Positions 31,175 through 52,081 of a stretch of DNA of 64,000 bases are shown piece by piece; position 1 is the stretch's first letter; every line of letters begins with the position of its first letter. The stretch is from Embleya scabrispora (GTDB lineage Bacteria; Actinomycetota; Actinomycetes; Streptomycetales; Streptomycetaceae). Location of the stretch: positions 806,001 to 870,000 of the forward strand of contig NZ_MWQN01000002.1 of the NCBI RefSeq assembly GCF_002024165.1, written 5' to 3'. Both the position numbers and the translations under genes were made by a program. Under the pieces are notes generated by a model. It was not told where the DNA came from. It ran no database searches and saw only the letters and a list, made by a program, of their open reading frames with translations.

Positions 31175-31560
31175 GGTGGCGCCGGTGCGGGGCCGGTCGC
31201 AGTCGCCGGGTGGGTGCGGCGGCGCCGGCGTTTGGGGCTGCGTGGCCTGGGGTGCGTGGTGAGACGCGCGCTTTGCTTGGCAGATAGCCGGGCGGCAGCG
31301 CGGGACGGCGGGCCGGCGATGCGGTTGGGCCCGCCGGGGGGCTTTCCCGAGTGGGTCGGGCGTCCCGGCGGGGGTTGCGCCTTGGTCGGGTGGTGCCTGT
31401 GCCGGGACCGGTGCCGGTGTGGTGCCGGTGCGGGGCCGGTCGGAGTTGTCGGGTGGGTGCGGCGGCGCCGGCGTTTGGGGCTCTGTGGCCTGGGGCGTGT
31501 GGTGGGGCGTGGGCTTTGCTTGGCGGAAGGCCGGGCGGCGGCGGTGGTGTCTTGGCCGGG
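31175..31560. repeat. Diverged GC-rich repeat units (family of the 40- and 50-kb elements)
   Basis: Two direct copies of about 120 bp (31181-31302 and 31424-31545) share GCCGGTGCGGGGCCGGTCG, GGTGCGGCGGCGCCGGCGTT, a GGCTTTGCTTGGC-like stretch and more. Between them lies CTTTCCCGAGTGGGTCGGGC. These blocks also occur, in the same order, in the left arms of the elements at 40.2 and 50.0 kb. No core or inverted arm is present here. The stretch 31076-31610 holds no convincing gene. Confidence 0.7.
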
Positions 31561-31610: not shown

Positions 31611-32657
31611 TCAGTGGCCGGTGGGGGTGAATCTGACCGGGGTGCCCGGGGTTGCCTGGGCGGCGGCGGCCAGGTGGTCTTCGGGGACGACGCCGATCAC
31701 CGGGTAGCCGCCGGTGACCGGGTGGTCGGCCAGGAAGAGCACCGGGCGGCCGTCTGGGGGCACCTGTACCGCGCCCAGCACCATGCCCTCGCTGGGGAGT
31801 TCGTCGGTGCGTGCCCAGGTCAGGGCGGGGCCGTCGGTGCGGAGTCCGATGCGGTTGCTTGCCGAGGCCACGGTGTAGTGGGCGGCGCCGAGGGAGTTTC
31901 GGGCGGCGGCGGTGAACCAGTCCTGCCGGGGGCCGAGCACCAGGGGGAGCACCAGTTCGGTGGGCGGACCCGATCGGCGGTGGACGTCCGCGCCCGGCGG
32001 GGTGGGTCCGGTGGGCTCGCCCAGCGGGAGCAGGTCGCCATCGGCGAGTGGGGGCGGCCCGAGTCCGGACAGGAGGTCGGTGGATCGGCTGCCCAGGACC
32101 GGTTCGACCGCCACGCCGCCGGCGAGTGCCACGTAGGTGCGCAGGCCGGCGGTGGCCGGGCCGATCTCGAGGACGGCGCCGGCCGGTACGCGGATCGCCG
32201 CCCCCCAGGCGACGGGGCGACCGGCGACGCGGACCGGGCAGGGTGCACCGACCACCGCGGCCACGGTGGTTCGGCGCACCCGCACGGCGGTGCCGGTCAG
32301 AGTGGTCTCCAGGGTTGCCGCCTCGGGGGGATTGCCGACCAGGCGATTGGCGAGGCGGTGGGCCGGCTGATCGAGTGCGCCCGAGCGGGGTACGCCCAGG
32401 TGGGCGAAGCCGATGCGGCCCAGGTCCTGGACGGTGGTGAGCGCGCCGGCCCGAATCACCTCGACCGTGCGCGATGCGTCACTCGCGTGGGTGACCCGAG
32501 ACCCCTCCGCCCCCGAATCGCGCCGCACCGCCTCACCCCGACCGGCCTCCCGCCGGCGATCCTCGCCCCGCTCCGCCTTGACCCGACCCGGCTCGCTCCG
32601 CTCCGCCCGAACCCGCCTGGCCTCGGCTCCGCCCACGCCGCCGCGTCCCGCGCTCAC
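31611..32657 (-). CDS. pxpC: 5-oxoprolinase subunit C (biotin-dependent carboxyltransferase-like)
   Basis: A 348-residue subunit of the ATP-dependent PxpABC 5-oxoprolinase, related to the KipA/urea-amidolyase C region (GALTTVQDLGRIGFAHLGVPRSGALD, NPPEAATLE, LGPRQDWF, SNRIGLRTDG, LFLADHPVTGGYPVIG). GTG 32657 overlaps the pxpB stop (GTGA). This start gives an N-terminal tail of about 45 residues rich in Arg, Glu and Gly with no counterpart in the family, because no later start codon comes before the conserved VEVIRAG. It works with PxpA and PxpB to open 5-oxoproline to glutamate. Confidence 0.88.
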   Translation of the reverse strand: MSAGRGGVGGAEARRVRAERSEPGRVKAERGEDRRREAGRGEAVRRDSGAEGSRVTHASDASRTVEVIRAGALTTVQDLGRIGFAHLGVPRSGALDQPAHRLANRLVGNPPEAATLETTLTGTAVRVRRTTVAAVVGAPCPVRVAGRPVAWGAAIRVPAGAVLEIGPATAGLRTYVALAGGVAVEPVLGSRSTDLLSGLGPPPLADGDLLPLGEPTGPTPPGADVHRRSGPPTELVLPLVLGPRQDWFTAAARNSLGAAHYTVASASNRIGLRTDGPALTWARTDELPSEGMVLGAVQVPPDGRPVLFLADHPVTGGYPVIGVVPEDHLAAAAQATPGTPVRFTPTGH

Positions 32658-39742: not shown

Positions 39743-40184
39743 CCACCAACGCGGCCTTCCAGCCTCCAGCCGCACAACACCGCCCCGAGGCCACCCGCAG
39801 CGGCGGCCTCGACCATTTGCCGGCACCCGCACGCCGCTCACGGTGCATCGCGGGACTACCCGGGGAGGGGCAGAGGATCACCCGTCGACGAGACGGCGCC
39901 CCGATGACCACCAGTGGCGGCGGGCGCGACCCGTCCACAACGCTGCTCGGCCAACGTGACAGCCTTCGCCCACAATCACCAACCGCGCCGAGCACAGCTG
40001 CCAGCGGGGGTGTGGAAGTCCCACCGGCGCAGCGACACCGCCCCGACAATCACCGGCCGGCGTGTGCGGTCACCGGTGGCAGGTGCGGGCTGCTCCCGTT
40101 GGCGGTGAAGCGCTCTGATATCCGCCGTCGACGGCGACCCGAACCTGGCCGATAGCACTGCCTACCGAGGCTTCCGCGTGTGGT
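39743..40184. other. Intergenic stretch between sortase and repeat element
   Basis: About 440 bases with no convincing coding frame on either strand and no hairpin comparable to the neighbouring terminators. Nothing recognisable was seen apart from the transition into the repeat element. Confidence 0.5.
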
Positions 40185-41335
40185 TACGGGTGGCAGGTGC
40201 GGGGTTGGTCCGAGTCGATGGTGGGCCGCCGCCAGCGTTCGGGGCTCCAAGACGGGGGCTTCCGGCGAGGCGGCCGCGTTGCTTACCGAAAACCGGCTGG
40301 CAGCGGGGGCTGGGAGGGAGGTTGGGTCGAGTCGTCCGAGGGGCCTTTCCGAGTGGGTCGGGAGTTTCCGGCGGGCGTTGGGCTTGTGGTGGCGGAGTGC
40401 TGGCGCGGAGCCGGGGCGCGAAATCGGATTGCGATCGGTGGTTGTGGCCTTTGGGTTTCGGTGACCTGCGGTTTTGTGGGATCAGAGAGGAGAGATGGGC
40501 GTCGTGTACCGGTTTCGTCCGCTCCGACCCCCTCAATGCCGGAGCGGAGACAGAAATCGCCCGATCGGGTCGGCTTCGGGTCCTGCGACCCTTCAGATGC
40601 CGTCGGGGAGGCCAAAAGTGCCCACCAAGCGCCGAAACCGGATCCCGAGGCGTTCGAAACGGCTTCTTTTCCCGCTGACCTGCGGTTTTCTCTCGCATCG
40701 AGGCTGCGGTGCGTAACGCCGTCCGGTTTCCTGAACTCTCGCCACCCAGCCGCCGACCGTCTCTCGAAACGCCCTGCCCGACCCACTCGGAAAGGCCCCT
40801 CGGGCGACTCGACCGGGCTCCTCACCCGCTCCCCCGTTGCCGGCCGGTTTTCGCCGAGCAAGGCGCCTGTCTCGTCGGGGCCCTTGAGTCTTGGAGCCCC
40901 GAACGCCGGCGGCGGCCCATCATCGACTCGGACGGGCCCCGGACCGGCCACCCGCAACCGAAGGCGAACGCGCGCCGCAAGCGCCCGGCCCGCTCGGAAA
41001 GGCTCCCCGGACGACTCGACCCGAGCACCCTCCCCGCCCCCGTTGCCAGCCGGTTTCGGTGAGCAACGCGGCCATCTTGCCGGAAGCCCGGGTCTTGGAG
41101 CCCCGAACGCTGGCGGCGGCCCATCATCGACTCGGACGGGCCCCGGACCGGCCACCCGCAACCGAAGGCGAACGCGCGCCGCAAGCGCCCGGCCCGCTCG
41201 GAAAGGCTCCCCGGACGACTCGACCCGAGCACCCTCCCTGCCCCCGTTGCCAGCCGGTTTTCGCCGAGCAAGGCGCCTGTCTCGTCGGGGCCCTGGGTGC
41301 AACGTGCGGTGCACGCGCCCGGCCCGCTCGGGTCG
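40185..41335. repeat. Composite repeat element A (inverted units around a core)
   Basis: One forward unit (40190-40395) and about three reverse units (40770-41335) face each other across a core of about 370 bp. Marker words in the forward unit include ACCGAAAACCGGCTGGCAGC, CCTTTCCGAGTGGGTCGGG and GGTGGGCCGCCGCCAGCG; their reverse complements appear in the right arm. The last two reverse units are direct tandem copies with a 204-bp period (40977-41180, 41181 on), nearly identical where both are present. Frames stay open on several strands only because of the composition. The element occupies the gap between two convergent genes. Confidence 0.85.
40395..40770. repeat. Core of composite element A
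   Basis: The core is homologous to that of element B (50650-51045). Shared blocks include GGTGACCTGCGGTTTTGTG, GCCGAAACCGGATCCCGAGG and GCCGTCCGGTTTC with TGAACTCTCGCC. TGACCTGCGGTTTT occurs twice inside this core (at about 40461 and 40676) in direct orientation. Confidence 0.8.
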
Positions 41336-41523
41336 GTTGCCTGCTTGTCGGCCGGGGCTGGGAGGACTTGTGGAGACATACGGCTCGGCCGGCGTTCGAG
41401 GCCGACCGGGTTGCCGGTGGCGAATGTGCGTTCGAGGCCAATTGGACCGACTGATGCGACGACGCCCCGACGGCGGGCGGGCCGTCGGGGCGTCGTGACG
41501 CGAGATCGTCCAGGTGCGGGAGG

Positions 41524-43206
41524 TCAGTGGGCCGCCGCAGTACGGACGCGGGCGCGCTCAGCCGACGCCGGTTCGGCCGATGCCGGCTGGGCTTCGCCGC
41601 CCGTTTGGCTCGCAGCGGCGCCCTCGGCTCCTGCGGCCACAGCCCCCGCCCCCGCGGCCTCGGCTCCCGAGTCCTTGCCCTCGGCCTCTGTCTCCGGGTC
41701 CGTGCCCTCCGTCTCCGCCCCAATACCCGCGGCCGCCGGGCTTCCCGCCGGGTTGCGGAGCAGGAGCAGCGCGAGTGCGGCGGCGGTCAGGATTCCGGCT
41801 GCGGCGGTCCAGAAGCCGGCCGACATTGCGGTGGTGAAGGCCTCGCGGGCAGCGGTCGCCAAGTGGTGGTCGCCTGTGGTGTCGGCCACGGCGAGTGCGT
41901 CCGAGATCGACTGCTTGGCCTGTTCGGGGGCCTCTTCGGGCATGGCGCCGGTGTAGGTGCCGGACAGGATGCTGCCGAGGACGGCCACCCCGAGCGCCGC
42001 GCCCGCCTGCTGCACCGTGTCGTTGAGCGCTGAGCCGACGCCGGCGTGCTCGGCCGGTACCGCGCCCATCAGAGCCGCCGTCGCCGCGGGCATCGCCAGC
42101 CCGCTGCCGATCCCGATCAGCACGGTCGCGGCGGAGAGCAGTCCGAAGCCGGCGTCCGACGGCAGGCTCGCCACGGTGCCGAAGCCGACCGCGATGACCA
42201 CCAGGCCGACCGCCGTCATGGGCCGGTTGCCGATCCTGTTGCCGAGCGTGGCGCCGATGCCGTTGAAGAGCAGCGAGGCGATGGCCAGCGGGGCGAAGGC
42301 CAGGCCGGTCTTGCTCGGCGAGTAGCCCAGGACGAACTGGAGGTACTGGGTCAGGATCAGCATCAGCCCGCCGTTGGCGAACGTCAGCAGGACGAGCGAG
42401 AAACTGGCACCGCTGAACACCCGGTTCCGGAACAGCGCGAGCGGAACCATCGGGTGCGCGGTACGGATCTCCCAGAAGCCGAACGCCACCAGCGAGACGA
42501 CCGCGACCACGAGCGAGATCTGCGTACCGGGGTGCGACAGACCGCCGTTGGCCGACTCGATGATCGTCCACACCAGCGCGGTCATGCCGACCATCGACAG
42601 CACCATGCCCAGCGGGTCGGACCTGCGCCACGGCCCCTTCGACTCCGGCATCAGCACGAGCGCGGCGATGATCGCGACGATCGCGATCGGCACGTTGATC
42701 AGGAACACCGCGCCCCACCAGAAGTGCGCGATCAGCACGCCGCCGACCACCGGCCCGCCGACCAGACCCACCATGGCCACCGCACTCCACGCGGTGATCG
42801 CCTTCCGCCGCTCCTCGTCGTCGAACACGGTGATCAGGATCGACAGCGTGCTCGGCATGATCAACGCCCCGCCGACACCCATCAGCACCCGACCGGCGAT
42901 CAACTGCTCAGGGTTGGCGGCGAACGTCGCGGCCAGCGAGGCGCCGCCGAAGATCGCCAACCCGACGATCATGATCCGCCTTCGACCGAACCGGTCGGAC
43001 AGGCTGCCTGCGGTCAGCAACAGGCCGGCGAACACCAGTACGTACGACTCGATGATCCATTGGATCTCCTGGGCGTCCGCCCCCAGGTCGGTCGCGATCG
43101 GCGGGACCGAAACGGTCAGCACCATGTTGTCCACGACCAGCACCAGCGTGCTCAGGCACAACACGATCAGGATCAGCCAGCGGCGCGGATTGTGGCGGTT
43201 CTCCAT
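41524..43206 (-). CDS. DHA2-family multidrug efflux MFS transporter
   Basis: A 560-residue proton-driven exporter of the EmrB/QacA type with 14 helices. Motif A-like SDRFGRRRIMIVG and motif C-like GGPVVGGVLI are present. A C-terminal tail of about 60 residues is Ala/Gly/Glu-rich and without predicted structure. The ATG at 43206 follows GAGGGG. It is divergent from a TetR regulator with paired operator-like sites between, so it is probably induced by its drug substrate. Confidence 0.92.
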   Translation of the reverse strand: MENRHNPRRWLILIVLCLSTLVLVVDNMVLTVSVPPIATDLGADAQEIQWIIESYVLVFAGLLLTAGSLSDRFGRRRIMIVGLAIFGGASLAATFAANPEQLIAGRVLMGVGGALIMPSTLSILITVFDDEERRKAITAWSAVAMVGLVGGPVVGGVLIAHFWWGAVFLINVPIAIVAIIAALVLMPESKGPWRRSDPLGMVLSMVGMTALVWTIIESANGGLSHPGTQISLVVAVVSLVAFGFWEIRTAHPMVPLALFRNRVFSGASFSLVLLTFANGGLMLILTQYLQFVLGYSPSKTGLAFAPLAIASLLFNGIGATLGNRIGNRPMTAVGLVVIAVGFGTVASLPSDAGFGLLSAATVLIGIGSGLAMPAATAALMGAVPAEHAGVGSALNDTVQQAGAALGVAVLGSILSGTYTGAMPEEAPEQAKQSISDALAVADTTGDHHLATAAREAFTTAMSAGFWTAAAGILTAAALALLLLRNPAGSPAAAGIGAETEGTDPETEAEGKDSGAEAAGAGAVAAGAEGAAASQTGGEAQPASAEPASAERARVRTAAAH

Positions 43207-43299
43207 GGTGGACCCCTCGAGTTCTCGGCTTCGCGTGGTCGGGTCTTCACGTCTTCTTGGCGCGGAGGATGGTGCGTGACGCGTACGCCGTGCCCTCGC

Positions 43300-43316
43300 T
43301 GCGAACACTGTACGCA
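43300..43316. promoter_or_regulatory. Operator-like site 1 (TetR/MFS pair)
   Basis: TGCGAACACTGTACGCA is an imperfect dyad that recurs nearly unchanged at 43384. It lies 94 bases upstream of the MFS start. A weaker third version (GGAACGGTGTGCGCA) stands at 43321-43335. Confidence 0.6.
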
Positions 43317-43383
43317 TCACGGAACGGTGTGCGCAACTGGTGAACGATGTCCCCATGCACTCCTGGATCAGGCGTACGCAGAA

Positions 43384-43399
43384 TGCGAACGCTGTGCGC
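43384..43399. promoter_or_regulatory. Operator-like site 2 (TetR/MFS pair)
   Basis: TGCGAACGCTGTGCGC matches site 1 at 14 of 16 positions and lies 68 bases upstream of the TetR start. Paired sites over both divergent promoters fit a self-regulating TetR repressor. Confidence 0.6.
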
Positions 43400-43466
43400 T
43401 ACGGTGGCCCAAAACAGTGATCAAGCGATACGCGCGGTTCACGCGGTACGGACAGAGAGGGGCGCC

Positions 43467-44201
43467 ATGGCAGCCGACGACAAGCCGTTCGAATCCGTAT
43501 GGACACGCCCGCGTCGCCAACGCGAGCAGCTGAGCCGGGAGCAGATCGTTGCCGAGGCGGTGCGGCTGCTCGACATCGAGGGGCTGGAGGCGCTGAGCAT
43601 GCGGCGCCTGGGTACCCGCCTGGGCGCCGGGGCCACCTCGCTGTACCGGCACGTGGCCAACAAGGACGAGCTGATCGAGCTGGTCGTCGACGAGGTCTAC
43701 GGCGAGTTGACCGTGCCGGAGCCGGGCGATCCGGCGAACTGGCGGGCCACAATCGAAAGTTGCGCGTACAGCGTGCGTGCGATGGTGCTGCGCCACCCCT
43801 GGGTGGCCGTGGTGCTCGGCCAGGTGGGTCTGGCCTACCTGGGGCCGAACGTGATCCGGCTGTCCGAGCGCATGCTCGCCGTGGTCGAGGGTGCGGGCTT
43901 CGCCGTCGAGGAGAGCGATCGGGTGATGAGTACGGTCCTGGCCTATGTGATCGGGATGGCCACCAGCGAGGCGGCCTACCTGTCCATGCTCGCGCGCAGC
44001 GGTCGGACCGAACAGGAGCTGATGGAGAGCCTGCAACCCAGTGCCGAGGAGGCGATGCGCGACCATCCCCGGGTCCGGGAGAGTCAGTCGGCGATGCGCG
44101 GCAGGGATCCCGAGCAACTGCGTGAGGCGAACTTCGACTATGGCCTCCAGCGGATGCTGGACGGCCTGGCGGTCCGCCTCGAACATCTCGCAACCGGCTG
44201 A
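43467..44201 (+). CDS. TetR-family regulator of the MFS pump
   Basis: A 244-residue repressor. The helix-turn-helix is at about 20-65 (SMRRLGTRLGAGATSLYRHVANKDELIELV). The rest fits the TetR_C ligand domain of tetracycline-repressor-like proteins. AGAGAGGGG precedes the ATG at 43467; the frame is open upstream but without a site. Divergent from the DHA2 pump. Confidence 0.88.
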   Translation: MAADDKPFESVWTRPRRQREQLSREQIVAEAVRLLDIEGLEALSMRRLGTRLGAGATSLYRHVANKDELIELVVDEVYGELTVPEPGDPANWRATIESCAYSVRAMVLRHPWVAVVLGQVGLAYLGPNVIRLSERMLAVVEGAGFAVEESDRVMSTVLAYVIGMATSEAAYLSMLARSGRTEQELMESLQPSAEEAMRDHPRVRESQSAMRGRDPEQLREANFDYGLQRMLDGLAVRLEHLATG

Positions 44202-44362
44202 CTCCACGGGGGAGTTCGCGGCGGCTGTGAACCCGCCGTGCCGGAGGTGCCGGTGAGCGGAGGGTGGGGCTCGGGTTTCGGCGGCTATCCTGGCCGCTCC
44301 GGCCTCCGGTCGAGCGGGTCGGGAATCGAGCTCCTGGTCGCTCGGCCGGTCTGGGGAACCCC

Positions 44363-45088
44363 TTGTCGTCGTTACAGTCGTCGGCGGACATCAAGTCCGA
44401 GCAGATCGCGGCGGAGATCCGCGACGCGATCCGGCTCGGCACACTCCGGCGCGGGACGCTGTACTCCGCACGGGAGTTGGGCGAGCGGTTCGGTGCCTCC
44501 CGGACGCCGGTACGGGAGGCCCTGCTCAAACTGGCGGACCTGGGACTGGTCCGGATCGAACGCAATCGCGGCGCGCGCGTGCTCGGCCCGGACGGGCGCG
44601 GCGTGGTCGAACTGTGCAGTCTGCGCGTGTTGTTGGAGCCGCCGGCGTGCCGCAGCGCCGCGGCGGTGATGACCACCCGCGATGACGAGGAACTGGCCGC
44701 CCAACTGGCGATCATGGCCGCGCACCCCGACGCCGGCCCCGAGTACTTCGCCGCCGACGAGAAGCTGCACGACGTGATCCTGCGGGCCGGCGGGAACCGG
44801 CGACTGGCCAAGTTCGTCGGTGAGTTGCGTCAGACGCTGGCCCTGGACGGGCGACTCAGCGTACCGAGATACCAGTCGGTGGAGACCGCGCTCCGGGAAC
44901 ACACCGACATCGTCGAGGCGCTGCGCCGGCGCGACGGGGTGGCCGCCGAGAGCGCGATGCGCAAACACGTCGTGCGCTCGGGGGAGTTGCTGGTGTCCAA
45001 CACCGGCGAGGACAGCTGGGGCCTGGTCGCGGAGTGGCGCCGCTGGGTGGGGATCGCGGAGACGACGGGCGAGCGCCCGCTTTCCTGA
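44363..45088 (+). CDS. GntR-family regulator (FCD domain)
   Basis: A 241-residue regulator: winged helix at about 10-75 (SARELGERFGASRTPVREALLKL) and an FCD helical domain with metal-binding acidic and His residues (EKLHDVIL, EHTDIVEAL, RKHVV). The TTG at 44363 is taken as start because GGGGA precedes it and the helix begins soon after; the start is uncertain. No obvious target is adjacent, since both neighbours are separated by terminator-like sequences. Confidence 0.8.
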   Translation: MSSLQSSADIKSEQIAAEIRDAIRLGTLRRGTLYSARELGERFGASRTPVREALLKLADLGLVRIERNRGARVLGPDGRGVVELCSLRVLLEPPACRSAAAVMTTRDDEELAAQLAIMAAHPDAGPEYFAADEKLHDVILRAGGNRRLAKFVGELRQTLALDGRLSVPRYQSVETALREHTDIVEALRRRDGVAAESAMRKHVVRSGELLVSNTGEDSWGLVAEWRRWVGIAETTGERPLS

Positions 45089-45406
45089 TCGGAGGTGTGC
45101 AACCGGGTGTGCCGTTGGGGGATGCCGCTGGGCGGCACACCTCCGGCCGGGTTCCGGCCTCGACCCGATTCCCCAGACCTGGTTGCGCGGACAACCGTGC
45201 GCCACCCCGACCGGCGCCGTGCGACTGCTCGCCGGTAACCAGGACGGGGGCGATCGGACTGGCACCTGGATCACCCCGCCCGTCGTCGCGGCTGCCAACT
45301 CATGTGCTTCCGCGCCGAGTTACTAGCCGCGACCGCGACCCCGAACGCACGGTCCGGCTCGCCGATCGGATCGGGCACCCGCCGCGAACCGGGCCCTGCC
45401 GGCGGC

Positions 45407-45438
45407 GGGGTCGACGTCCGACAAGGGACGTCGACCCC
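45407..45438. terminator. Hairpin between GntR and metallohydrolase genes
   Basis: A perfect 13-bp stem (45407-45419 with 45426-45438) with a 6-nt loop stands 26 bases beyond the end of the convergent metallohydrolase gene. The rest of the 375-bp gap (45089-45406) shows no gene. Confidence 0.8.
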
Positions 45439-45463
45439 ACCCCCCCCACCAACCCCCCCGGGG

Positions 45464-47248
45464 TCAGTCCCCCCAGTGCGAAGACTTGACGTCGACGAAG
45501 ATCGGGTTGCTGTAGAACCAGATGTCGCGCCACGGGTCGCCGTCGTTGTTCGGGTGCTGGATCGGGCCCGCCGGGTCGACGCGTGCGCCGAACGGGCCGA
45601 CGCCGTGCCGGTTGCCGTCGCTGCCTCGGAGTCGGACGTAGTACGGCTTGTTCCGGCGCGGCAGTTGCACCTTCAGGGTGTAGGTGCCGGTACGGCCGGC
45701 CACGTCGATGCGCTTGGTCACCCGGGCGTCGGGGGCCTGCCAGGCGTCGGCGTCGCGGGACTTGCCGGTGACCGTGCCGGTGATCACGTCGACGTGCGCC
45801 AGGGTCGGCACCACACCGTGGTAGTTGGGCCGGCTCGCGGTGGTGACCCGGATGTAGAGCGTGGCGCCCCGGTTCGCCGACAGCGGCAATCGGCCGCCCA
45901 GGGTGACCGGTTCGCTGCGGCCGTTGTCCGCGACCATCCACACGTCGAGGCCGTCGAGCAACTGGCCGTGGTCGACCCACACGCGCCCGGCACGCAGGCC
46001 GTTCATCACGTCGCGGTAGCCGAACCGCTCCACGCCCACGTGGGTGCGGCTGAACTGCCCGGGCCAGAAGTCGCTGCCGGGCTGCGGGACACCGGTGTCC
46101 TTGGGCAGCGGCTTGGAGCCGAGGTCGTCGAAGCCCCTGCCGGGCGGGTAGTCGCCGTCGGCGTAGGTGTCGAACATGGTGCGGTGGTTGTCCGAGTTCG
46201 AGGTGACCGACCACAGCCGGCCCTCGGACAGCAGCGCGTCCCACATGCCGCCGACCGTCGCGGTCATCCAGTCGAAGCCGCCGAACGTGCGGTAGCTCTC
46301 GATCGGGTAGCGCGGCCAGCTCTGCGGCGACGGCGCGTTCTGGTATTCGCCGCGCTGGAAGGTGCCCGGACCCGACTGGCCCTCGCGATACTTCACCCAC
46401 GCCGGGTCGGCGTTGGCCTGCGAGCCGGGAGCGCCCTCGAAGCCGAGGAAGATCGACGGGTCGGCGTCGTGCCAGGCGCGCAGCTCGTGCGGGGAGACGA
46501 TGCCGAGCCGGCTGGGGTGGTTGGCCAGCACCAGGACGTCTTCGACGAAGCCCTCGCGGCGGCGCTGTCCGAGCCAGCGGATCGCCTCCACCGCCTTGGC
46601 CTCGTTGGCGGGGGTCTTCGGGTCGCCCACCGCGCCCACGTCGAACTTGTTCAGCTTGGCGTCGAACGTCAGCTCGAACTGCCGGAGCAGTTCCACCTCG
46701 TTGCGGCCCGGCGCGACCATGATGGTGGCGTGCTCGGCGGCGGGGACGTACCACTCCAGGCCCTGGAAGATCAGCACCCGCGGGTTTTCCTGACGGGCCT
46801 TGAGGATCTCCGCGTGTTCGCGCTCCGCGCCACCGGCGTTGGCGTGGCCGAAGTTGGCGTGCTCGGTGTAGACGATCCAGTCCAGGCCGAACTGCCGCCC
46901 CTGCGCCGCCGACTGGGCGAAGCCGTACTTGGCGTCGTGGCTGTAGACGGTGTGCACGTGGTGGTCGCCCACGAGGTAGACGTACTTGCTCGGCGGGCCG
47001 TCCTGGCCCGGGCGCGAACTCGCCTGCACCGCGTCGTCGGACTCGGCCGCCGCCGCCACGCCCGCGCCGGTCATACCGAGCGCCGAGGCACCCAGGAATC
47101 CGGCCCCGAACAGCCCGGCTCGACCGATCAGCCCTCGGCGCGACACGCCCTGCGCGTCGAGCCGGTCCTCGGCCACCTCCGGGTCGGCCCACTCGGGCAA
47201 CTGCGGTAGGGGCCGATCGGCCGGAAGCGAGTGGTCCTCGGTCGCCAT
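45464..47248 (-). CDS. Tat-exported PHP-domain metallohydrolase (CehA/McbA-like)
   Basis: A 594-residue secreted hydrolase. A twin-arginine signal (SRRGLIGRAGLFGAG) at about 36-70 is followed by a PHP metal-binding domain: GDHHVHTVYSHD, YTEHANFGH, FQGLEW, LANHPSR and SNSDNH supply His/Asp/Glu ligands. A C-terminal beta domain follows (about 420-594). CehA/McbA relatives hydrolyse carbaryl-type esters, but most family members have unknown phosphoesterase-like roles. Export through Tat fits folding with metal inside the cell. It appears monocistronic. Confidence 0.85.
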   Translation of the reverse strand: MATEDHSLPADRPLPQLPEWADPEVAEDRLDAQGVSRRGLIGRAGLFGAGFLGASALGMTGAGVAAAAESDDAVQASSRPGQDGPPSKYVYLVGDHHVHTVYSHDAKYGFAQSAAQGRQFGLDWIVYTEHANFGHANAGGAEREHAEILKARQENPRVLIFQGLEWYVPAAEHATIMVAPGRNEVELLRQFELTFDAKLNKFDVGAVGDPKTPANEAKAVEAIRWLGQRRREGFVEDVLVLANHPSRLGIVSPHELRAWHDADPSIFLGFEGAPGSQANADPAWVKYREGQSGPGTFQRGEYQNAPSPQSWPRYPIESYRTFGGFDWMTATVGGMWDALLSEGRLWSVTSNSDNHRTMFDTYADGDYPPGRGFDDLGSKPLPKDTGVPQPGSDFWPGQFSRTHVGVERFGYRDVMNGLRAGRVWVDHGQLLDGLDVWMVADNGRSEPVTLGGRLPLSANRGATLYIRVTTASRPNYHGVVPTLAHVDVITGTVTGKSRDADAWQAPDARVTKRIDVAGRTGTYTLKVQLPRRNKPYYVRLRGSDGNRHGVGPFGARVDPAGPIQHPNNDGDPWRDIWFYSNPIFVDVKSSHWGD

Positions 47249-47335
47249 GTGGGTTCCTTGCGCTCGGGGGGAGGGGCGAATACCGGCCAGACGTTATGAG
47301 GCAAAGGTGGCGGGCGGGCGACGTGCAGACCTTGA

Positions 47336-48019
47336 TCACATGACGGGCGGGATGATCTTTCGGGACGCGCGGGAGCGGAGGAGCCATTCGACCACGATCA
47401 GGTTGGGCACCCAGCACAGAAAGGGAACGAACGTGTACGCACGGTCGAAGTCGCCGGTCAGCGGGACCAGCAGGATCAGCCACAGCCGCAGCGTCACCGC
47501 CGCGTAGGTGAACGCGAAGGCCCGGTGCATCCAGCGGCGATGCAGGGTCGGATCGCCGCGCCGGATCGCCCGCAACCCGAAGCCGGCGCAGCCCACCCAC
47601 AACACCGCGAGCATGCCGAAGCCGGCGGTGCCCACCGCGCCCGCGTGGTTCATCGGCGCGAGCACCAGGCCGGCGACCCCGCCCACGGCGATGCACAGCA
47701 GCACGAGCCGGCCGCAGGCCCGGTGCAGGCGGGGTGCGCGCAGCCGTATTCGGCTCGCGAGCTGGGCGGGGGACAGCAGCAGGGCGAGGCCGGCGGCCAC
47801 GATGTGCGTGTAGAAGAAGGCCTGCTGCCACTTCGGCCGGTACGCGTAGTTGCTCGCTATGTCGGCGTCGTCGCGGGCGAGGGCGACCAGGGACTCGGTC
47901 AGGTAGGGCAGCGGGGCGAACACGGCGATCGCCAGAGCGCTCAGCGCGAGCCACCAGACGCCTACCGTGCGGCGTCGGGTGGAGTCGGGTCGGTGCGCGG
48001 TGGTGGTGGTCGTGGTCAT
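47336..48019 (-). CDS. DUF2306 membrane protein
   Basis: A 227-residue protein with six hydrophobic helices and conserved features of DUF2306 (YTHIVAAGLALLLSPAQL, RLHRACGRLVLL, GDPTLHRRWMHRAFAF). Paired His residues inside helices suggest heme or metal binding, but the role is unknown. AAAGGA precedes the ATG. It is divergent from a sensor kinase gene 155 bases away. Confidence 0.85.
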   Translation of the reverse strand: MTTTTTTAHRPDSTRRRTVGVWWLALSALAIAVFAPLPYLTESLVALARDDADIASNYAYRPKWQQAFFYTHIVAAGLALLLSPAQLASRIRLRAPRLHRACGRLVLLCIAVGGVAGLVLAPMNHAGAVGTAGFGMLAVLWVGCAGFGLRAIRRGDPTLHRRWMHRAFAFTYAAVTLRLWLILLVPLTGDFDRAYTFVPFLCWVPNLIVVEWLLRSRASRKIIPPVM

Positions 48020-48174
48020 GTCGGGGCGTCCTTTCGCGGCATGTCACCACGCTAGGAAGCGAAGGGGTGCGCCCTCGCCCCCCGGAACGGGGAAACCCCT
48101 CCCTCGTGCGAGGGAGATGGTTCTCCGCCGCGCGGGGGTGGACCGGGGCGGGGCTCGCCGGTGCAGGATGGGGC

Positions 48175-49221
48175 ATGCGCACTTCCGACGTCTGGCTGAC
48201 GCCTGCGTTCGTGGCGGGCGCGGTCGCGGTGACCGTGCTCGCCCCCGCCGACCCGCCCTACCGGGGGCTGGACGCGGTCGGTCTGAGCCTCGCCGTCGGG
48301 TCCACGCTGTGTCTGTTCCCGCGCCGGGTCGCGCCGATGTGGGTGGTGGTCGCCACGTCGCTGCTCGTGGTGGTCAATGCGGCGGCCGGCTATTCCACCA
48401 CGGTGACCCAGTGGCCGGCGTGGATCTCGCTGTTCACCCTGTTCTCGTTGCGCGGGACCGGCGCCCGGGTGGTCGGCGCGGCCGTGATGGTCGCCGCGGT
48501 GGGCGGCTACTTCGCGGTCGACCGGGCGCCGGTGGGGCCCACCGACGTGTTCGGCGTGGCGGTGTGCTTCCTGCTCGCGATGGTCGCGGGCGACGCCGCG
48601 CGCAGCCGGCGGGCCGCGGCGCTCGCCGAGCACGCCCGGGTCCGGGCCGAGGAGCGCACCGAGCTGGCCCGCGAACTGCACGACTCGATCGGGCACGCGG
48701 TCAACGTGATGGTGATGCAGGCCGGGGTCGGACGCCGGGTGTTCGTCGACGACCCGACCTTCGCCCGGGAGGCGCTGGGCAACATCGAGAGCGTCGGCCG
48801 CGACGCGCTGGGGGAGTTGGACCGGCTGGTCCGGGTGATGCACACCGACCGGCCGACCACCGACCTGTCCGCGCTGGTCGACCGGGTCCGGGCCGCGGGC
48901 CGCGAACTGCGGCTGACCACGGAGGAGATACAGGTGGGTGCCACGGTCGCGCAGGCGCTGCACCGGATCGTCCAGGAAGCGCTGACCAATGCGCTGCGGC
49001 ACACCGACAGCGGCCGGATCGACGTCGAATTGGCCCAGGTCGACGACACCGTGGTGCTCGAAGTGGTCAACGAGGGGCGCCAGTTGCGGGTGGGTCGGCC
49101 CGGGCGCGGGCTGGCCAACATGCGCGAGCGGGCCCGGTCGGTCGGCGGTGAGGTGGAGGCCGGCCCGGTCGCGGCGGGCTTTCGGGTACGGGCGACGCTG
49201 CCGGCGCAGGTGCGTTCGTGA
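48175..49221 (+). CDS. NarL-type sensor histidine kinase
   Basis: A 348-residue kinase with four to six N-terminal helices (about 8-145), a HisKA_3 domain with ARELHDSIGH (His169) and an HATPase domain (VQEALTNALRH; GRGLANMRER). The response regulator follows with a GTGA overlap. The divergent DUF2306 gene may be a target of the pair, as often in this arrangement, but this is inference. Confidence 0.9.
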   Translation: MRTSDVWLTPAFVAGAVAVTVLAPADPPYRGLDAVGLSLAVGSTLCLFPRRVAPMWVVVATSLLVVVNAAAGYSTTVTQWPAWISLFTLFSLRGTGARVVGAAVMVAAVGGYFAVDRAPVGPTDVFGVAVCFLLAMVAGDAARSRRAAALAEHARVRAEERTELARELHDSIGHAVNVMVMQAGVGRRVFVDDPTFAREALGNIESVGRDALGELDRLVRVMHTDRPTTDLSALVDRVRAAGRELRLTTEEIQVGATVAQALHRIVQEALTNALRHTDSGRIDVELAQVDDTVVLEVVNEGRQLRVGRPGRGLANMRERARSVGGEVEAGPVAAGFRVRATLPAQVRS

Positions 49222-49880
49222 TCCGGGTGCTGCTGGCCGATGACGACGCGCTGGTCCGGAGCGGATTGAAGGCGCTGCTGCGGGCCGAGCCCGGGATCAC
49301 TGTGGTGGGGGAGGCGGCCGATGGTGCCGAGGCGGTGCGTGCCGCGCTGGAACTTCGCCCCGACGTGGTGGTGATGGACATCCGGATGCCGGTCCGCGAC
49401 GGCGTTTCCGCCACTCGGGACCTGATGGCGGTGCCGGACCGGCCGCGTGTCCTGGTGCTCACCACGTTCGACCTTGACGAGGTGGTCGACGACGCGATCG
49501 CGGCCGGCGCCGACGGCTTCCTGCTCAAGCGGGCCACGCCGGAGGAGCTGATCGCCGGGATCCACGCGGTCGCGGCCGGCGACGCGGTGGTCTCGCCGGC
49601 GGTCGCCCGCCGCCTCTTCGCCTCGCACGCCGCCCGAATCGGCCCCGACCACATGCGCGCGGGCCGCCTCACCGACCGCGAGGCCGACGTGCTGCGCGCG
49701 ATGGCCCGCGGCCTGTCCAACACCGAAATCGCCCGCACACTGCACCTGTCGGTGGAAACGGTCAAAACCCACGTCAAACACATCCTGGCCAAACTCGAAG
49801 TCCGCGACCGCACCCAAGCCGTCGTCTGGTCCTACCGCACAGGCTTCGCCTACCGAAACGCCCCACCGCCCAGAGACTGA
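49218..49880 (+). CDS. NarL/LuxR response regulator
   Basis: A 220-residue regulator. Receiver residues Asp8-Asp10 and phosphoacceptor Asp54 (VVVMDIRMPV) are intact, and the LuxR helix-turn-helix starts near 150 (LTDREADVLRAMARGLSNTEIA). GTG start overlaps the kinase stop. The repeat element B begins about 45 bases after its stop. Confidence 0.92.
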   Translation: MIRVLLADDDALVRSGLKALLRAEPGITVVGEAADGAEAVRAALELRPDVVVMDIRMPVRDGVSATRDLMAVPDRPRVLVLTTFDLDEVVDDAIAAGADGFLLKRATPEELIAGIHAVAAGDAVVSPAVARRLFASHAARIGPDHMRAGRLTDREADVLRAMARGLSNTEIARTLHLSVETVKTHVKHILAKLEVRDRTQAVVWSYRTGFAYRNAPPPRD

Positions 49881-50261
49881 ACGGCACGAGCGGCGGGCGC
49901 GCGTCGGGCGCCCCCGTCGAGCGCCGCGCTTGCGGCGGCGGGCCGGCCGGTGCGGGCTCTGTCCGAGTCGCCGGCGGGCCGCCTCCGGCGTTCGGAGCTC
50001 CAGGACTCCGGCTTCCGGCGAGGCAGGTGCGGGGTCGGGCCGAGCCCGCCGGAGAGCCTTCCCGACTGAGCCGAGCGCTTCCGGCGGGCTTTGCGCTTCT
50101 GGCTGGAGGTGACCGGTGCGGGGCCGGCCCGGGTCGGTGGTGGGCCGCCGCCGGCGTTCGGGGCTCTGAGACCCGGGCTTCCGGCGAGAGGGGAGCATTG
50201 GTCGGCGAAAACCGGCCGGCGGCGGGGAGTTGGAGAGCGCCCGGGTCGAGTTGCCCGAGGG

Positions 50262-50645
50262 GCCTTTCCGAATGGGTCGGGCGGTTTCGGCGGGCGTTGC
50301 GCTTGTGGTTGCGGGTGGCCGGTGCGGGGTTTGTCCGAGTCGGTGGTGGGCCGCCGCCGGCGTTCGGGGCTCCGAGACTGGGGAGTCTCGACGAGGCGGG
50401 GGCGTTGGTCGGCGAAAACCGGCTGGCAGCGGGGGGCGGGGAGGGCGGTCGGGTCGAGTCCGCCGGAGGGCCTTCCCGAGTGGGTCGGGCGTTCCCGGCG
50501 GGCGCTGCGCCTTGGGTTGCGTGAGCTGGGGCGGGGTTGGTCCGCGTCGGTGGTGGGCCGCCGTCGGCGAAAAAGCGGCCTGCAGCGGCGGGTCGGGAGG
50601 GGGCTCGGGTCGAGGCTGCCGGGCTTGCGTTCCTGAGTGGGTCGG
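50262..50645 (+). repeat. Left arm of near-perfect inverted repeat (element B)
   Basis: This arm is the reverse complement of 51047-51430 with only a handful of substitutions and no evident gaps over about 385 bp (position x pairs with 51692-x). It spans nearly two repeat units plus a short innermost unit with GGCGAAAAAGCGGCCTGCAG. Confidence 0.85.
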
Positions 50646-50649
50646 CGCG

Positions 50650-51045
50650 CTTCGAGGGCGTTGGGGGAGGAGGTTGGGGCTCGAAGCCGGATCGCGATGG
50701 GCGATTTCGGGCTATGAGCTTCGGTGACCTGCGGTTTTGTGAGGTCGGGGTGAAAAGGCGGGGGTCGAGTGCCGGTGTCGTGTGTTCTGGCCTCTTCGGC
50801 GTGAGTGGGGAGGCCGAAACTGCCCGGTCGGGGTCGCCTTCGGGCGTTGCGACCTCGCTGAGGTCGTCGTCGGGAGACCGAGAGTGCCCACTAGAAGCCG
50901 AAACCGGATCCCGAGGCGCCCGGAACCGCCGTCCACTCGCGCCGACCTGGGGTTTTCTCTCACACCGAGACCACGACACCCCACGCCGTCCGGTTTCGTG
51001 AACTCTCGCCCCTCACACGTCCACCGCACCTCGAAATGCCCTGAG
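50650..51045. repeat. Core of composite element B
   Basis: The core separates the inverted arms and is homologous to 40395-40770. Conserved blocks are CTTCGGTGACCTGCGG, GCCGAAACCGGATCCCGAGG, GGGGTTTTCTCTCAC-like and GCCGTCCGGTTTCGTGAACT. The middle third differs between the two cores. Confidence 0.8.
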
Positions 51046-51046
51046 C

Positions 51047-51430
51047 CCGACCCACTCGGGAACGCAAGCCCGGCAGCCTCGACCCGAGCCCCCTCCCGAC
51101 CCGCCGCTGCAGGCCGCTTTTTCGCCGACGGCGGCCCACCACCGACGCGGACCAACCCCGCCCCAGCTCACGCAACCCAAGGCGCAGCGCCCGCCGGGAA
51201 CGCCCGACCCACTCGGGAAGGCCCTCCGGCGGACTCGACCCGACCGCCCTCCCCGCCCCCCGCTGCCAGCCGGTTTTCGCCGACCAACGCCCCCGCCTCG
51301 TCGAGACTCCCCAGTCTCGGAGCCCCGCACGCCGGCGGCGGCCCACCACCGACTCGGACAAACCCCGCACCAGCCACCCGCAACCACAAGCGCAACGCCC
51401 GCCGAAACCGCCCGACCCACACGGAAAGGC
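51047..51430 (-). repeat. Right arm of near-perfect inverted repeat (element B)
   Basis: Reverse-complement partner of 50262-50645. Such near identity of arms within an otherwise diverged array points to recent duplication or gene conversion between the arms. Confidence 0.85.
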
Positions 51431-52081
51431 TCCCCAGCGAACTCGACCCAAGCACCCTCCCGCTGCCGGCCGGGTTTCGCCGAGCAGCGCACTCGTCTCG
51501 TCGAGGGCTTCGCGTCTTGGAGTTCCGAGCGTTGGCGGCGGCCCACTACCGACTTGGGCGGGCCTCGGACCGGCTACCTCGCAGCCATGGGCGCAACGCT
51601 CGCCGGAGCGTTCGGCCCAGTCGGGAGCATTCCTGGTGGACTCGACCCGACCGCCCTCCCGTTTCCCGCTGCCGGCCGGGCTCGCCGAGCAGCGCGCTCG
51701 TCTAGTCAAGGGCTTCGAGTCCTGGAGTTCTGAGCGTTGGCGGCGGCCCACCATCGACTCGGACGAGACTCGGATTGGGTGCCGGCCGCCAAGGGCGCAG
51801 CGCCCGCCGGAAGCCGGTCGATCCACTCGGGAAGGTTCCCTGGCGGACTTGACCCCGCGCCTCATCCTCGCCCGCCGCTGCCGGCCGGGTTTTGCCGAGC
51901 AATGCATCTGCACCCATCTCGCCGGAAGCCCCGGATCTTGGAGCCCTGAACGTCGGTGGCGGGCGGTCCACCATCGACTCGGGCCGGCGCCGGGGCGGCC
52001 GCTCCGCAGGCGAAAGCGCACGCGCGCCGGAAACGCCCCGATCCATCGGGAAGGCCCCGGCCCGGTCCGCGACCGCAAGGG

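Follow-up and report, generated by a model that had tools for sequence, protein, structure and literature searches.

What kind of sequence carries no gene, folds back on itself through long arms of repeated units around a common core, and occurs twice within one short stretch of a genome? The question is raised by two composite inverted-repeat elements, here called elements 1 and 2, in a window of 64,000 nucleotides, the whole stretch of DNA that was analysed, which forms part of contig 2 of the 10.96-Mb genome of Embleya scabrispora (Streptomycetaceae). An earlier note on this DNA had described both elements and left several readings side by side, among them a non-autonomous mobile element and an RNA or termination structure. 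Of these, the first has gained ground: the elements are probably non-autonomous DNA transposons of the foldback type, as judged from sequence comparison. We favour mobility because related copies occur at some 50 dispersed loci, terminal inverted repeats are present, copies are present or absent between two species, and T(A/G) stands at two empty sites.

The anatomy of the window elements, with units and cores as matched by profiles, is as follows.

40163..41331, plus strand: element 1, about 1.17 kb; a copy found in this genome and absent from Embleya hyalina, with a right end that lacks the terminal motif
40163..40179, plus strand: left terminal inverted-repeat motif of element 1, TACCGAGGCTTCCGCGT, a 15/17 match whose first two letters, TA, belong to the putative target
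40172..40373, minus strand: left arm of element 1, one unit
40401..40766, plus strand: core of element 1; CGAAACCGGATC and TGACCTGCGGTTTT are conserved in core alignments
40776..41293, plus strand: right arm of element 1, three unit matches, the last partial
49945..52057, plus strand: element 2, about 2.1 kb; an old copy that lacks the terminal motif; E. hyalina has an element at the corresponding site
49959..50652, minus strand: left arm of element 2, five unit matches with partial ones counted
50644..51034, plus strand: core of element 2
51045..52057, plus strand: right arm of element 2, six unit matches with partial ones counted; profile units reach 52020 and homology continues to about 52057

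Both elements lie where the earlier note had placed them. The arms of element 2 at 50220-50645 and 51047-51472 (426 nt each, with a 401-nt spacer between them) are 96% complementary, against a maximum of 42% when one arm was mononucleotide-shuffled 1000 times. In element 1 the four longest inverted pairs measure 84-124 nt, at 81-85%. The core that the two had been said to share is indeed common to them, with 71, 74 and 81% identity in three aligned pieces.

This plan is not confined to the window. A search that scored only 40 candidates placed the core at 40 places in the genome (43 matches). Searching the genus, scanning with a pattern and reading further regions brought in ten more loci with a whole or partial core, so that the total of at least 50 core-bearing loci is a lower bound. 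Profile searches over the 40 regions recovered inward-facing left units, a core of about 390 nt and inward-facing right units, as the earlier note had read the units from two copies; the arrangement holds in 39 regions with a core, of which L094 and L099 lack the left arm. A typical copy has 1-7 units of 205 bp per arm around a core of about 390 bp, and unit matches per arm run from 0 (the left arms just named) to 7 with partial matches counted. The unit consensus, built from 181 units, is 203 nt long. The core holds CGAAACCGGATC plus TGACCTGCGGTTTT twice, about 215 nt apart and in the same direction, and an inverted CCGG(T)TTCG motif follows each set. Strings of GGGNAGGG, resembling KOPS (FtsK-orienting polar sequences), were seen by eye in the arms.

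The copies vary in completeness. Locus L100 has units without a core, and L070, L095 and L097 have an interrupted or incomplete one. Remnants made of units alone occur at L100, L215, L217, L218 and L221, and one lies in the window itself:

31180..31544, minus strand: remnant with a single arm (two unit matches of the left arm); core, right arm and terminal motif are absent

A predicted minus-strand gene (31611-32459) adjoins this remnant. L227 (4165-5559) holds two adjacent elements, of which the second has a shortened left arm; they are not cleanly nested, and a suspected nested insertion was not confirmed. Element sizes range from 124 bp to 2.5 kb, with short forms of 124-324 bp. Within the 40 core-bearing elements a codon-based gene finder predicted no open reading frame (ORF), whichever of three thresholds was applied, in keeping with the earlier statement that no protein is supported.

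The copies combine long inverted arms of tandem subrepeats, variable length and homogenisation within the copy, which define foldback elements, with the absence of coding capacity, the inverted ends and the multiple copies of miniature inverted-repeat transposable elements (MITEs). A strict MITE size of 50-1000 bp (PMC4596501) does not accommodate the 27 of 40 core-bearing elements that exceed 1 kb. Membership among repetitive extragenic palindromes (REPs), bacterial interspersed mosaic elements (BIMEs) or REP doublets forming hairpins (REPINs) was rejected, as the units measure about 205 bp and not the 20-40 bp of those palindromes.

The earlier note had seen no recognisable ends, which does not hold for the left end of element 1. 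A terminal inverted motif, TRCYGAGGYTTGCGCTT, stands at a unit boundary in many copies; the left end reads TA-CYGAGGYTTGCGCTT, the right end is its inverse, and the ends can also be written TACYGAGGYTTGCGCTT. The TACCGAGGCTTCCGCGT copy at 40163 is the sole match of at least 14/17 to this motif in the window. Across the family, 40 of 76 outer arm ends fall at positions 196-204 of the 204-position unit model; 33 of these stop there and seven, by extension, run on into another unit; the profile search itself would miss a following unit shorter than about 40 nt. By eye, about 18 of the 33 stopping ends continue outward as RCCTCRGYA. Twenty ends in this genome match CCTCGGTA in at least six of eight positions, although a few of these, L076 and L080 among them, are probably chance matches. 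When no more than one mismatch is allowed, TRCYGAGGYTTGCGCTT occurs 14 times in this genome, once in E. hyalina NBRC 13850 and in neither of the two other Embleya genomes compared (G002 and G003).

Comparison with E. hyalina supplied both filled and empty sites. Its state could be read at 25 of the loci, with 14 occupied and 11 empty (L062, L067, L069, L071, L074, L078, L090, L216, L218, L227 and L228). Profile searches found no element in the empty regions, L067 having been judged by pairwise comparison only. The spacing between matching blocks in E. hyalina is 0 to about 100 bp at L067, L069, L074, L216 and L227, and 176 to 1302 bp at the other empty loci. At L071 this genome reads GCT-TA-CCGAGG ... 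CCTCGG-TA-GGTCAGG and E. hyalina reads GCT-TG-GGTGAGG. At L074, E. hyalina reads GAC-TA-GCACTCC at the place of the following insert:

L074 5905-9789 (C3:1101904-1105788 of this genome): cargo-bearing insert, 3.9 kb long, bounded by ends of the family type

The insert starts with CAGTGAGG and ends with CCTCGGTG, and comprises a left arm, a core, a 2.5-kb segment with a host-type gene for an M1 peptidase, and a second end; the same 2.5-kb segment sits at a different location in E. hyalina. The right junction of L218 reads TA-ATGTC in both genomes and provides a half site. T(A/G) at two empty sites and TA at this half site fit a TA target; the other sites were not clean.

The two classes of loci also differ in their ends. 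Terminal motifs scoring above background were present at none of the 14 shared loci and at 7 of 8 tested loci occupied in this genome alone (Fisher 4.7e-5), a contrast to be read with the choice of loci in mind, since L071 was chosen because both its ends are good and L216 came from the end-motif search. Three more empty loci, L062, L218 and L228, stand outside the eight, with best end scores of 13, 16 and 15 of 17; L218 and L228 likewise came from the end-motif search. Element 2 belongs to the shared class and element 1 to the class found in this genome alone. At each of the 14 shared loci both species have a whole or partial element; at L066 and L064 the E. hyalina contigs stop within it. 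Nine of 20 E. hyalina element regions have no counterpart among the 40 regions examined here.

Sequence appears to be exchanged both within and between copies. Identity between units is 83.5% for facing first units, 83.0% for neighbours in the same arm, 79.3% for other pairs within a locus and 75.9% between loci. Three pairs of old loci in this genome are far more alike in the core than the rest (L064/L066, 96.1%; L065/L088, 92.8%; L082/L086, 87.6%), and since this likeness peaks in or near the core and fades outward, it points to copying between loci.

We are thus able to propose a course of events for these putative transposons. A transposase encoded elsewhere in the genome would recognise the ends, and perhaps the repeated units too, and insertion would take place at a TA dinucleotide within intergenic DNA. 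Once inserted, the palindrome may be unstable, its arms gaining and losing units, as the patterns of arm length suggest. Recombination would homogenise the arms of one copy, whole cores may be copied between loci, and the ends would erode.

Several observations weigh against this account. At L067, L069, L216 and L227 the gap in E. hyalina exceeds the element, so that extra sequence of this genome is involved. The flanks of L071 are only 70-73% identical to E. hyalina, and TA-type junctions were seen at just three places, two of them full empty sites and the third a half site, with no clean junction at L227, L069, L078 or L090. At two mismatches TRCYGAGGYTTGCGCTT gives 27 matches and its reversed control 26 (a control count given without its split by mismatches), for which reason only near-exact matches carry weight. 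The terminal dinucleotides are TG..CA in L063 and in the second element of L087, as mirror images without a direct duplication; we infer that TA changed in one arm and was then copied to the other. No transposase was found in the copies, the genome-wide search having been aimed at PF13358 alone; both PF13358 (IS630-type) genes of the genome have other ends or none, and seven ORFs from the L069, L095 and L176 inserts had no Pfam match. Some of the copies found in this genome alone are distant from all others (L067 76%, L069 and L071 75% to the nearest copy), which is not what a recent jump predicts. Finally, the core is kept in old copies that have lost their ends no less well than in young ones, and this does not fit the simple history of a dead transposon.

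A partner of the IS630 type, considered as a source of the transposase, was not supported: the ends of L229 begin TA-CTGACGTTTTCG and are unlike those of the family, and the degraded L230 has no matching ends. L229 itself (1363-2526) holds an IS630-type transposase gene with inverted ends CTGACGTTTTCGTCGTGATG and TA on both sides.

The retention of old cores admits either of two explanations, use of the core by the host or conversion that renews it. The former underlies the alternative in which a sequence of mobile origin has been adopted as a DNA site, its core kept because a protein that organises the chromosome or regulates genes would bind there. With the core retained in old copies, the chromosome-structure role named in the earlier note likewise keeps some probability. 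The most-conserved core columns are matched at 92.8% in 11 shared cores of this genome and at 93.3% in 16 E. hyalina cores irrespective of sharing; for 14 copies that are found in this genome alone or retain an end the figure is 89.6%. Occupation of 14 loci in both species would suit such a site, as would the placement of the copies, which are intergenic and have a median distance of 121 bp to the 3' end of a gene, as against 486 bp to a 5' end. On the other side, conversion among the copies might also account for the likeness of the cores, and core orientation is kept in 7 of 10 ortholog pairs.

Distribution also speaks against a host site. No core match was found in G002 or G003 among 40 candidates scored in each; a single arm-unit match of about 85 nt in G003 (C450:17984-18070) is a possible relic of older presence, or chance. 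Across the bacterial family, with the genus itself included and four candidates scored per genome, 4 of 150 genomes matched; apart from this one and E. hyalina, the match was confined to 25 nt in one genome and 58 nt in another. A core-pattern scan of genome contigs returned 36 stretches, many in E. hyalina and elsewhere single matches, those in unrelated taxa being taken as chance by their record titles alone. Plasmid and phage collections gave no match to the family. Seven E. hyalina contigs (C36, C38, C45, C57, C58, C66 and C76) begin no more than about 210 bp away from a core, so that the palindromes break assemblies, and copy numbers in E. hyalina are probably underestimates. On balance we regard adoption by the host as an unlikely account of the family. 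In a composite version, which we put forward as a tentative and rather improbable idea, the core of a foldback element (TGACCTGCGGTTTT twice, flanked by inverted CGAAACCGG) would have become a host protein site, retained at dozens of fixed intergenic positions; the arms, homogenised by recombination, would serve as a self-repairing frame while the ends decay.

It might also be that the loci common to both species were not inherited, and that hot spots received insertions or expansions independently. Six complete orthologous core pairs are 74.9-79.2% identical (mean 77.6%) and rank 2-18 among 37 cores of this genome, barely above non-orthologous pairs. Column by column, their identity lies near the expectation from column composition; none of 592 pairs between the two species, involving 16 E. 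hyalina cores, exceeds 84.8%. A weak excess of the true pairs is nevertheless present, reached by 6 of 720 permutations of the six. The flanks of the 14 shared loci are 89-96% identical between species (89-95% in the comparison that counted hits of at least 80%), and intact ends, as fresh insertions have them, are missing from the shared copies. Independent insertion therefore seems to us highly improbable. Hypermutation as the cause of the lost orthology was weakened by the neutral measure, since fourfold sites are 90.7% identical between the species (in alignment blocks of at least 85%). Some excess of core change remains, for which copying between loci can partly account.

The reading as a structured non-coding RNA or multi-stem terminator fared no better. 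In its favour, the long complementary arms would fold if transcribed, and many copies have a gene end a short way upstream. Selection on an RNA duplex should show as an excess of G-U mismatches. Well-aligned stretches beside the core, compared in 44 pairs (37 from this genome, 7 from E. hyalina), hold 531 G-U and 536 A-C mismatches, with no bias towards an RNA strand; the consensus fold of 49 cores gives -13.6 kcal/mol with a covariation term of just -1.5, and an Rfam search returned no match. Membership among structured RNAs was rejected for this lack of covarying pairs and of G-U strand bias.

Nor does the gene setting support termination as a general role. Element 1 is flanked by convergent genes (a predicted gene and a major facilitator superfamily transporter), and so is element 2 (a LuxR-type response regulator and a protein like elongation factor G), so that the convergent setting reported earlier is right for the window. 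It does not extend to the family: with a home-made gene finder at threshold 18, 11 of 40 elements lie between convergent genes, 22 between tandem and 7 between divergent ones, next to 57, 183 and 46 among 286 element-free neighbouring gene pairs. A rule of convergent genes was dropped on account of the 29 copies in other settings, and with these counts we consider an RNA or terminator function very doubtful. A weaker finder, which missed a comEA-like gene, gave 13 convergent, 22 tandem and 6 divergent settings and one unread among 42. At L097 (7302-8132) the gene immediately downstream of an element is comEA-like, with helix-hairpin-helix and SLBB domains.

If the elements are foldback transposons, how do they relate to systems already described? 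MITEs of TA-inserting insertion sequences of the IS630/Tc1/mariner type are geneless and intergenic, with inverted ends and a TA junction. The Embleya family departs from them in its arms of 205-bp tandem units and its length of up to 2.5 kb, and its ends are unlike those of the IS630 in its own genome. P elements make 8-bp target duplications, unlike the TA target suggested here. With REPs and REPINs, as far as the parts of the reports used here describe them, it has in common that they are dispersed extragenic palindromes; it differs in its 205-bp units, its separate core and its terminal motif (PMC3116915, PMC3733652).

No paper on repeats or transposable elements of Embleya was found, and the titles and abstracts of the matches listed for bacterial foldback elements and for Streptomyces or actinobacterial MITEs include no such family; the foldback elements among those matches were all eukaryotic. 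BrickBuilt, a MITE of Porphyromonas gingivalis, is likewise bacterial and intergenic, with internal tandem repeats, short inverted ends and erosion of those ends, both being intact in 4 of 19 copies (PMC4596501). Its repeats are 23-nt direct tandem repeats between a leader and a tail, and the portions of that report drawn on here describe no inverted arms built of repeats on either side of a core (PMC4596501). Galileo, a foldback-like element of Drosophila, comes closer in design: subfamily F has inverted arms with tandem repeats of about 210 bp, and the excerpts of its description used here record long terminal inverted repeats that can hold tandem repeats, arms of variable length, many copies without a transposase and solo arms (PMC3573991). 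The arms of one Galileo copy are 98-100% alike, and repair between arms and between copies has been proposed (PMC3573991). Galileo, according to the same excerpts, has near-complete copies with a P-type transposase, whereas no coding copy was found in the Embleya family, which differs further in arms of up to seven unit matches and in its bacterial host (PMC3573991).

As far as we found, and within the portions of these sources that were at hand, the nearest design is that of Galileo and the nearest bacterial case is BrickBuilt; a foldback design with arms made of repeats is, to the same extent, new for bacteria. Should our reading hold, the Embleya family would offer a haploid host in which to measure arm homogenisation, palindrome stability and gene capture. 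The resemblance between a bacterial plan of 205-bp units and the plan of about 210 bp in Galileo F would then suggest that this design had separate origins.

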